Positions 8,795 through 11,008 of a stretch of 64,000 bases of DNA are shown here, one piece after another. The stretch spans positions 1 through 64,000 of the forward strand of contig WLHC01000002.1 of the NCBI GenBank assembly GCA_009702925.1. Direction: 5' to 3'. Source of the DNA: Actinomycetota bacterium (GTDB lineage Bacteria > Actinomycetota > Actinomycetes > Nanopelagicales > Nanopelagicaceae). The notes under the pieces were generated by a model that worked only from the letters and a program-made list of their open reading frames with translations, was not told the DNA's origin and ran no database searches. Position numbers and translations under genes: made by a program. Position 1 is the stretch's first letter; each line of letters begins with the position of its first letter.

Positions 8795-9377
8795 CTAAGA
8801 AAGAAACTGCTCCGCCTGCTTTGGGTCGATAACCGCCAAAGCAACTTCTTTCATTGTCAGCCGCCTATCCATGGCAGCTTTTTGTATCCATGAGAAGGCC
8901 TGCGGCTCGCTCAAACTAAGGGCAGACATCAAAATCCCTTTAGCTTTGTCAATAATTTTACGAGTCTCTAATCGATCATGAAGATCGGCAACCTCGGTTG
9001 CCAAAGTTTTCATCTGCTTATGTCTGCTAATTGCAATCTCAATTGCCGGCATTAAATCACCGATCGTAAATGGCTTAACCACATAGGCCATAACTCCAGC
9101 ATCTCGTGCCCGTTCTACTAACTCTTTTTGCGAGAAAGCGGTAAGCATAAGAACAGGGGCAATCTCAATAATTTTTGCAGCAGCTGAGATGCCATCTAGC
9201 ACCGGCATTTTCACATCTAGAATTGCAAGATCTGGTTTGTGCTCAACAGCTAAATCTATTGCATCTTGTCCGTTGGTTGCAGCTGCGACAACTTCATAAC
9301 CAGCACCTTGAAGCATCTCGATTAGATCCATCCGAATGATCGCTTCATCTTCTGCAACCAGAATACGAACACTCATC
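8795..9377 (-). CDS. pdtaR: ANTAR-domain response regulator / transcription antiterminator (PdtaR-like); start at MSVRILVAEDE
   Basis: Receiver domain (VLVAEDEAIIRMD, LAILDVKMPVLDG, TAFSQKELVERARDAGVMAYVVKPF) and C-terminal ANTAR (LETRKIIDKAKGILMSALSLSEPQAFSWIQKAAMDRRLTMKEVA). The polA/rpsA/pyk neighbourhood matches that of Rv1626. Confidence 0.9.
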
Positions 9378-9441
9378 TTGGTCTGGTCCTTTCTGGAACT
9401 AACATGGTGCTGAGATGTAAATTTAGTCCAAATCATTAACG

Positions 9442-9514
9442 TGCCCCGAGTCGGATTCGAACCGACACTATGCAGTGTTTGAGACTGCCCTCTCTACCGT
9501 TGGAGTACCGAGGC
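9442..9514 (-). tRNA. tRNA with CAA anticodon (Leu-UUG codon) but class-I short variable loop
   Basis: Cloverleaf read by eye: GCCTCGG TA CTCCAACGGTAGAGAGG GCAGT CTCAAAC ACTGC ATAGT GTCGG TTCGAAT CCGAC TCGGGGC A (73 nt). U33, anticodon CAA, A73; CCA not encoded. Variable loop only 5 nt. Confidence 0.88.
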
Positions 9515-9568: not shown

Positions 9569-11008
9569 TTACTGATAGGCGGGAGCTACGCCACCAACTG
9601 CATCACCAACGCGGTGTACTCGCATCGCATTTGTTGAACCGGGAATTCCAGGCGGAGATCCAGCGACAATGATGACTGTCTCTCCTTGTTTTGCGCGGCC
9701 AGATTCAATAAGTAACGTATCGGTCTGTTTTACCATTTCATCGGTGTGCTTAACCATCGATGCAATAGCTGGCTCCACTCCCCATGTAAGTGCAAGTCGA
9801 TTATAAGTTCCCACCTCTGGGGTAAATGCAAGGATTGGAATCGGCGATCGTAGACGTGCCATTCGACGTGCAGAATCGCCAGACTGAGTAAAAGTAACAA
9901 GGTACTTAGCATCAACAATTCCACCAACTTCAGCTGCTGCGCGAGTAATAGCTCCACCTTTTGTCCGTGGAGTTGTACGAAGTGGTCGAATCATTTCAAA
10001 ACCACCCTCTTCTGTGCGCGCGATGATTCGGGCCATAGTTGCAACTGCCTCAATAGCAAATGCTCCAACAGATGTTTCACCTGACAACATCAAAGCATCA
10101 GCCCCATCTAGAACTGCGTTTGCGCAGTCGGTGGCTTCGGCTCGAGTCGGTGTTGAATTGCTAATCATTGAATCCAGCATCTGAGTAGCAACAATTACAG
10201 GTTTGGCAGCTTCACGAGCTAGTTCAATACATCGCTTTTGTACCAGTGGTACTTCTTCGATAGGCATCTCAACTCCAAGATCCCCACGTGCAACCATGAT
10301 GCCATCGAAAGCACTTACGATCTCCTGCAGATTTTGAACTGCCTGTGGTTTTTCGATCTTAGCGATCACAGGGATTCGGATCCCTACTTCATCCATAATC
10401 TTGTGAACGTCCTCAATGTCTTTAGCATTTCGAACAAAAGACAAAGCAATAAAATCTGCCCCTGCGCGAAGGCCCCAACGTAGATCATCCATATCTTTTT
10501 CAGAAAGCGCCGGCACGGAAACCGCTACACCCGGTAAGTTGATACCTTTGCTATTGCTAACTAATCCTGGTTCTATAACTTTTGTAACAACATCATTGCC
10601 CTTTACTTGAGAAACCTCAACGGTAACTTTTCCATCATCAATAAGAATGCGATCGCCAACTTTGCAATCCTTTGTTAACTTTTTGTAGGTTGTGCCGACT
10701 CGTTCTTTTGTTCCCTCTATTTCATCAGTTGTAATAGTGAAAACATCACCACGGGAAAGTTCATGTGGTCCATCTAAGAATGTGGAAAGACGAATCTTAG
10801 GGCCCTGTAAATCAATAAGTACTGCCACAGGAACGCCAGCTTCTTTCGCGCCAGCTCTAACAAGATCTAAACGAGATTGGTGATCAGAATGTGTGCCATG
10901 TGACAGATTTAATCTTGCCATGTTCATTCCTGCTTGAATAAGTTCTTTCACTTTTTCGGCAGAATCCACTGCAGGACCCATGGTGCAGACGATCTTTGCT
11001 CTACGCAT
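9569..11008 (-). CDS. pyk: Pyruvate kinase
   Basis: MRRAKIVCTMGPA, GDLGVEMPIEEVPLVQKRCI, ATQMLDSMI. Confidence 0.97.
   Translation of the reverse strand: MRRAKIVCTMGPAVDSAEKVKELIQAGMNMARLNLSHGTHSDHQSRLDLVRAGAKEAGVPVAVLIDLQGPKIRLSTFLDGPHELSRGDVFTITTDEIEGTKERVGTTYKKLTKDCKVGDRILIDDGKVTVEVSQVKGNDVVTKVIEPGLVSNSKGINLPGVAVSVPALSEKDMDDLRWGLRAGADFIALSFVRNAKDIEDVHKIMDEVGIRIPVIAKIEKPQAVQNLQEIVSAFDGIMVARGDLGVEMPIEEVPLVQKRCIELAREAAKPVIVATQMLDSMISNSTPTRAEATDCANAVLDGADALMLSGETSVGAFAIEAVATMARIIARTEEGGFEMIRPLRTTPRTKGGAITRAAAEVGGIVDAKYLVTFTQSGDSARRMARLRSPIPILAFTPEVGTYNRLALTWGVEPAIASMVKHTDEMVKQTDTLLIESGRAKQGETVIIVAGSPPGIPGSTNAMRVHRVGDAVGGVAPAYQ

Follow-up and report, generated by a model that had tools for sequence, protein, structure and literature searches.

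An arm-less tRNA-Leu(CAA), common across Actinobacteria, as the probable ordinary leucine tRNA for UUG codons

By the textbook account, bacterial leucine tRNAs carry a long extra (variable) arm. Reviews regard this arm as a regular feature of tRNA-Leu outside mitochondria (PMC7609411, PMC9976931), and in E. coli, leucine identity resides in A73, A15-U48, G18G19, and A20a, while the anticodon is not an identity element and the arm is dispensable, tRNA-Leu without it staying active (PMC9976931). Leucine tRNAs with no long variable arm are known in four settings. Human mitochondrial tRNA-Leu(UUR) is recognised via A73 and A14 (PMC9976931), but its anticodon branch is floppy and it is served by a dedicated mt-LeuRS. 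A minimal arm-less E. coli tRNA-Leu (Larkin et al. 2002, as cited in PMC9976931) keeps A73 and the D/T-loop contacts and is still leucylated, although in that citing account it is a laboratory construct. Relatives of Mycobacterium mucogenicum have a short-loop tRNA-Leu(TAG), present as an extra copy beside the normal one in a tRNA gene cluster (PMC6582537). Finally, tRNA-Leu genes with a 5-nt variable loop and mostly a Leu core are borne by phages with hosts in several phyla (Erwinia phiEa21-4, Pseudomonas ZC03, Bacillus P59, and Mycobacterium Bonray). The actinobacterial gene described here differs from the first in its full bacterial cloverleaf and standard LeuRS, from the second in being a natural gene conserved across a phylum, from the third in being the sole chromosomal isoacceptor, and from the last in being chromosomal. 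It shares with the standard class II tRNA-Leu(CAA) of bacteria the anticodon, A73, A15-U48, A14, G18G19, A20a, a 3-bp D-stem, the reading of UUG as leucine and, in sister lineages, the locus beside pdtaR; the difference lies in the long arm, with armed Leu tRNAs of 2 comparison genomes (G014 and G054) having 13-17 nt, compared to a 5-nt loop here.

The window, that is, the whole stretch of 64,000 nucleotides that was analysed, holds a single tRNA according to ARAGORN, a tRNA-Leu(CAA) at 9441-9514 on the minus strand, and Rfam RF00005 matched the same site at 9442-9514 (52.1 bits, E 2.6e-8). The full sequence is GCCUCGGUACUCCAACGGUAGAGAGGGCAGUCUCAAACACUGCAUAGUGUCGGUUCGAAUCCGACUCGGGGCA. The gene lies between pyk and pdtaR, all 3 pointing in the same direction, and its features and neighbours are as follows.

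9442 to 9514, minus strand: arm-less (class-I-shaped) tRNA-Leu(CAA), nucleotides 1-73, CCA not encoded (ARAGORN; Rfam RF00005, 52.1 bits; fold)
9479 to 9481, minus strand: anticodon CAA, reads UUG (ARAGORN and sequence)
9467 to 9471, minus strand: variable loop AUAGU, 5 nt, with U48 pairing with A15 (diagnostic positions)
9493 to 9502, minus strand: Leu-type D-loop CAACGGUAGA, with unpaired C13/A22, A14, A15, G18G19, and A20a (element list of PMC9976931)
9442, minus strand: discriminator A73 (sequence and diagnostic positions)
8795 to 9376, minus strand: pdtaR-like response regulator with an ANTAR domain, 193 aa (Pfam PF00072 and PF03861)
9569 to 11008, minus strand: pyruvate kinase (pyk), the upstream neighbour (Pfam PF00224 and PF02887)

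The 73 nt fold into a cloverleaf with an acceptor stem of 7 bp, a D-stem of 3 bp, and anticodon and T stems of 5 bp each. ARAGORN, Rfam, and the fold thus agree with the earlier note on this DNA, which had described a complete 73-nt tRNA with a CAA anticodon, a 5-nt variable loop, and A73. The class I shape that the same note had assigned holds for one part of the molecule. The variable loop lies within the class I range of 4-5 nt and falls short of the class II arm of at least 10 nt, but the D-arm is Leu-like: its stem has 3 bp and C13/A22 are unpaired, compared to the 4-bp stem with a paired 13:22 of strict class I, which 56 of 61 tRNAs have in G014 and G054 once Leu, Ser, and Tyr are set aside. 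An allo-tRNA (8/4 or 9/3 acceptor/T stem) was ruled out by the 7/5 arrangement. Sequence identity within the genus is 98.7% over the tRNA, compared to approximately 34% over its flanks. In a set of 34 distinct class I Leu(CAA) genes, pairing reached 100% of cells for the acceptor, D, and T stems and 95% for the anticodon stem, and compensatory changes were numerous. Such conservation places the tRNA far beyond chance.

The window genome, which is 77% complete, contains 4 Leu tRNAs, with CAA and UAA being arm-less and UAG and GAG armed; given this level of completeness, the sole-copy status rests on congeners. In a complete congener (G014; 1.33 Mb, one contig), the same 4 are the only Leu tRNAs among 41 tRNAs, with a single Leu(CAA) gene, an arm-less Leu(UAA), and the arm confined to Leu(UAG) and Leu(GAG). 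A pattern search of 61 congeners for armed (class II) Leu(CAA/UAA) returned nothing credible, the one match being dismissed because by eye it formed no cloverleaf, while the arm-less Leu(CAA) was found at 96-100% identity in most congeners checked. The earlier note had left room for a separate, normal class II tRNA-Leu(CAA) elsewhere in the genome; since none is present in G014 and none credible in the 61 congeners, this idea was rejected. Because a Leu(UAA) tRNA bearing U34 could decode UUG as well, the CAA tRNA is not necessarily essential in the strict sense.

To keep the assumed reading of UUR codons from aiding the alignment, UUG and UUA were masked as X in 16 proteins of the window genome aligned to their E. 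coli counterparts. UUG faced E. coli leucine in 64 of 155 positions (41%) and UUA in 80 of 212, compared to 9.7% as background; the values for CUG, CUU, CUC, and CUA were 42-48%, and no other residue was comparably common at UUG positions. With UUG and UUA meaning leucine, and with both UUR-reading tRNAs of the genus being arm-less, these arm-less tRNAs must deliver leucine. Scoring of the diagnostic positions showed that the window tRNA has the complete set of A73, A14, A15-U48, G18G19, and A20a, together with the U8/A14 core. A15-U48, unpaired 13/22, and A73 were present in all 93 distinct arm-less Leu(CAA/UAA) genes, and A14 in 91 of the 93, the 2 exceptions being ARAGORN calls shifted by one base. 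The whole combination was found in every Leu tRNA of G014 and G054 and in 0 of their 71 non-Leu tRNAs. These data bear on whether the tRNA, though decoding UUG, receives an amino acid other than leucine, an option raised in the earlier note that would entail reassigned or ambiguous decoding of UUG. The class I shape, unusual for a bacterial tRNA-Leu, would fit such a tRNA, as would the exclusion of the anticodon from leucine identity in E. coli (PMC9976931), but this option is contradicted by the sole-copy status, by the match of UUG to leucine at the level of the CUN codons, by a Leu core absent from the non-Leu tRNAs of 2 genomes, and by the armed Leu(CAA) that takes the same locus in sister lineages, and we consider it extremely improbable. 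The alternative offered alongside it, an atypical Leu tRNA, agrees with the single gene in the complete congener, the Leu identity core, and the meaning of UUG.

LeuRS was single-copy and standard, with its C-terminal domain present, in the 4 genomes checked. In the window's genus, LeuRS (G000 and G014; L286, L287) lacks most of the insert found immediately ahead of the KMSKS motif in E. coli. A special LeuRS as the cause of arm loss was considered and rejected: genomes putatively labelled as Streptomyces- and Mycobacterium-type keep part of this insert, so its loss is not tied to the loss of the arm. As LeuRS reportedly has no need of the variable arm (PMC9976931), the window tRNA would be a leucine tRNA without just that unneeded part.

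The position of the gene was compared across the class, where the arm-less Leu(CAA) adjoins pdtaR; near-identical loci from Candidatus Planktophila (L173) place the window in the freshwater Nanopelagicales. The guess in the earlier note that a tRNA-Leu might be found at this locus in other actinobacteria was borne out by gene calls, and in Streptomyces coelicolor Leu(CAA) is encoded by one gene, SCOt09 (PMC4932002). When pdtaR was examined in 10 genomes, an armed Leu(CAA) lay beside it in 8. One genome (G312) has the arm-less form beside pdtaR and another of the same genus (G306) the armed form, and the same contrast recurs inside another genus (G054 versus G180 and G219). In a further genome (G317), the armed Leu(CAA) lies approximately 1.5 kb from pdtaR, beyond the locus compared. 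Armed and arm-less genes at the same pdtaR-side locus are positional orthologues, the arm having been lost or gained in place.

The same comparison weighs on the proposal that the gene, instead of yielding a translating tRNA, serves pdtaR as a tRNA-like leader or processing element. Its co-oriented position between pyk and pdtaR in the window, the class-wide linkage to pdtaR, and a pdtaR start one base past A73 in 21 of 28 congener loci are what such an element would predict. However, the tRNA adjoins but points away from pdtaR in Streptomyces, Mycobacterium, Micromonospora, Nocardioides, and others, being divergent at most loci of other genera and co-oriented in the window's genus, so conserved co-orientation upstream of pdtaR was not found and the linkage is not a leader arrangement; it is positional. 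In addition, this is the sole UUG-cognate tRNA, and the equally arm-less Leu(UAA) has no pdtaR neighbour in any locus examined. A leader in place of a tRNA is therefore very unlikely as the origin of the element, while an added role in the window's genus is conceivable. Taken as a whole, the comparisons argue strongly that the window tRNA is a working elongator tRNA-Leu for UUG whose arm was lost or regained in place and which an ordinary LeuRS charges. In the mechanism that we propose, the tRNA would read UUG with its long variable arm gone, keeping everything that bacterial LeuRS is known to read (A73, U8/A14, A15-U48, G18G19, A20a, and the 3-bp Leu-type D-arm), and the single LeuRS of the cell would charge it with leucine. 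The loss, or possibly regain, of the arm would have occurred in place, at the ancestral pdtaR-side locus of Leu(CAA), with Leu(UAA) and some Leu(UAG) genes undergoing the same change across Actinomycetota.

The added role concerns the junction with pdtaR in the window's genus. In 21 of 28 distinct congener loci, whose flanks are otherwise poorly alignable, the pdtaR ATG begins exactly one base past A73, giving A73-C-ATG at the 3′ end of tRNA-Leu(CAA) (L029, L032, L034-L036, L039, L041-L051, L054-L056, and L173). The remaining 7 loci have a spacer before pdtaR, mostly with a Shine-Dalgarno-like AGGA; the window is one of them, with pdtaR starting at 9376, 65 nt past A73, preceded by the Shine-Dalgarno-like AGAAAGGA. 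Among 101 tRNAs of 3 genomes, an ATG was found at offset 1 in 8 cases compared to 14 summed over 8 other offsets (p = 4e-4 in a simple binomial test, in which the genes are not independent), and all 8 open long ORFs. The same tRNA-C-ATG junction was seen at Ala TGC, Ala GGC, Asn GTT, Gln TTG, and Leu GAG (G000, G014, and G015). Start codons one to a few bases past the tRNA discriminator thus occur at pdtaR, leuS, and others, leuS starting 3 nt past tRNA-Ala(GGC) in G000 with the same junction in G015. Most tRNAs of G014 have no encoded CCA. A cut after nucleotide 73 or 74 of a co-transcript would result in a leaderless mRNA. Besides translating as tRNA-Leu, the gene might therefore free a leaderless pdtaR mRNA in the window's genus upon 3′ maturation, a dual role that would add to the main explanation and not compete with it. 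The excess of A73-C-ATG junctions and of offset-1 starts is in its favour, whereas the 65-nt spacer with a Shine-Dalgarno-like site in the window, the tight gene spacing that plain genome compaction could produce, and the search for the processing enzyme are against it: no RNase Z above the TIGR02651 cut-off was found in 3 congeners, G014 included, and no small free-standing Lactamase_B_2 protein of RNase Z size in the complete G014, where the only matches have 571 aa (the size of RNase J) and 773 aa. We regard this dual role as tentative, somewhat less probable than not. A promoter inside the tRNA was also considered as a source of leaderless pdtaR, but by eye no TANNNT was present at -12 to -7. 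In a wider form, which we likewise hold to be possible but doubtful, some tRNA genes of streamlined freshwater actinobacteria would double as 5′ processing modules for the next gene (pdtaR, leuS, and others), coupling its expression to tRNA maturation, at pdtaR via the sole exact UUG-match tRNA.

Pattern scans of named genomes placed the arm-less type in Streptomyces, Mycobacterium, Nocardia, Gordonia, Corynebacterium, Bifidobacterium, and Micromonosporaceae, and also in Nocardioides, Microbacterium, Cellulomonas, Pseudonocardia, Planktophila, and more. Two further patterns were used to separate armed from arm-less forms in 297 genomes of the phylum, with 2 extra CAA cases coming from another scan. 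In 34 genomes of the same class, of which the searches settled 30 for CAA and 32 for UAA and which are mutually related, so that Fisher values on the armed/arm-less table are indicative only, Leu(CAA) was arm-less in 15, armed in 15, and both in 0, and Leu(UAA) was arm-less in 20, armed in 12, and both in 0. Arm-less Leu(UAG) was seen as well in genomes of one family (f50; G088, G167, G206, G145, and G196), which suggests that arm loss may have reached other isoacceptors. Arm-less Leu(UAA) also occurs on contigs labelled as Rokuibacteriota (L177), Chthonomonadales (L219), and Neomegalonema (L226) MAGs, being either real or a binning error. In the open-licence literature we found no description of arm-less tRNA-Leu as a general actinobacterial trait, which is not proof of novelty.

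Phages carry the variant too. Arm-less tRNA-Leu (CAA, UAA, UAG, and GAG) was found in phages of Mycobacterium, Streptomyces, Rhodococcus, Bacillus, Lactobacillus, Pseudomonas, and Erwinia/Salmonella, and with host phyla this diverse the variant is not confined to actinobacterial hosts. Such genes are common (for example, L297-L305), sometimes beside armed ones (L298, L301). A Streptomyces Leu(CAA) query had no phage match, whereas a Mycobacterium query did. The attP of the cluster J phage Thibault contains GGATTCAAAACCCGTACAGTGTGAGTTCGAATCTCACCGAGGGCAC, the 3′ half of a Leu(CAA) of class I shape, which matches Mycobacterium-like genomes (G128 and G327); the attP of the related phage Omega has a 44-bp core in common with the host tRNA (PMC10865867). 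Mycobacteriophage Gaia integrates into the tRNA-Leu-CAA of M. smegmatis with no restoration and carries its own tRNA-Leu-CAA (PMC10865867), which is armed and 84 nt long. The armed Gaia tRNA appears to stand in for an arm-less host tRNA, the form of which we infer from the phage attP copy of its 3′ half.

Together, these results indicate that, as judged from sequence comparison, the cell almost certainly uses the window tRNA as its normal leucine tRNA for UUG, and that the arm-less Leu(CAA), far from being a peculiarity of the window, is common across Actinobacteria. Whole families, putative Streptomyces- and Mycobacterium-type genomes included, would decode UUG and/or UUA by an arm-less tRNA-Leu, and this form could account for actinobacterial tRNA-Leu calls that score low or conflict in isotype. 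Arm-less tRNA-Leu amounts to a natural, repeated deletion experiment, which supports a LeuRS that reads the core and A73, not the arm. Matched armed and arm-less pairs at one locus offer a test of what the arm is for, such as avoiding SerRS and TyrRS, modification, or enzymes that bind long arms, and with the arm-less form so common across Actinobacteria, the old question of how leucine tRNA is recognised becomes testable in nature.
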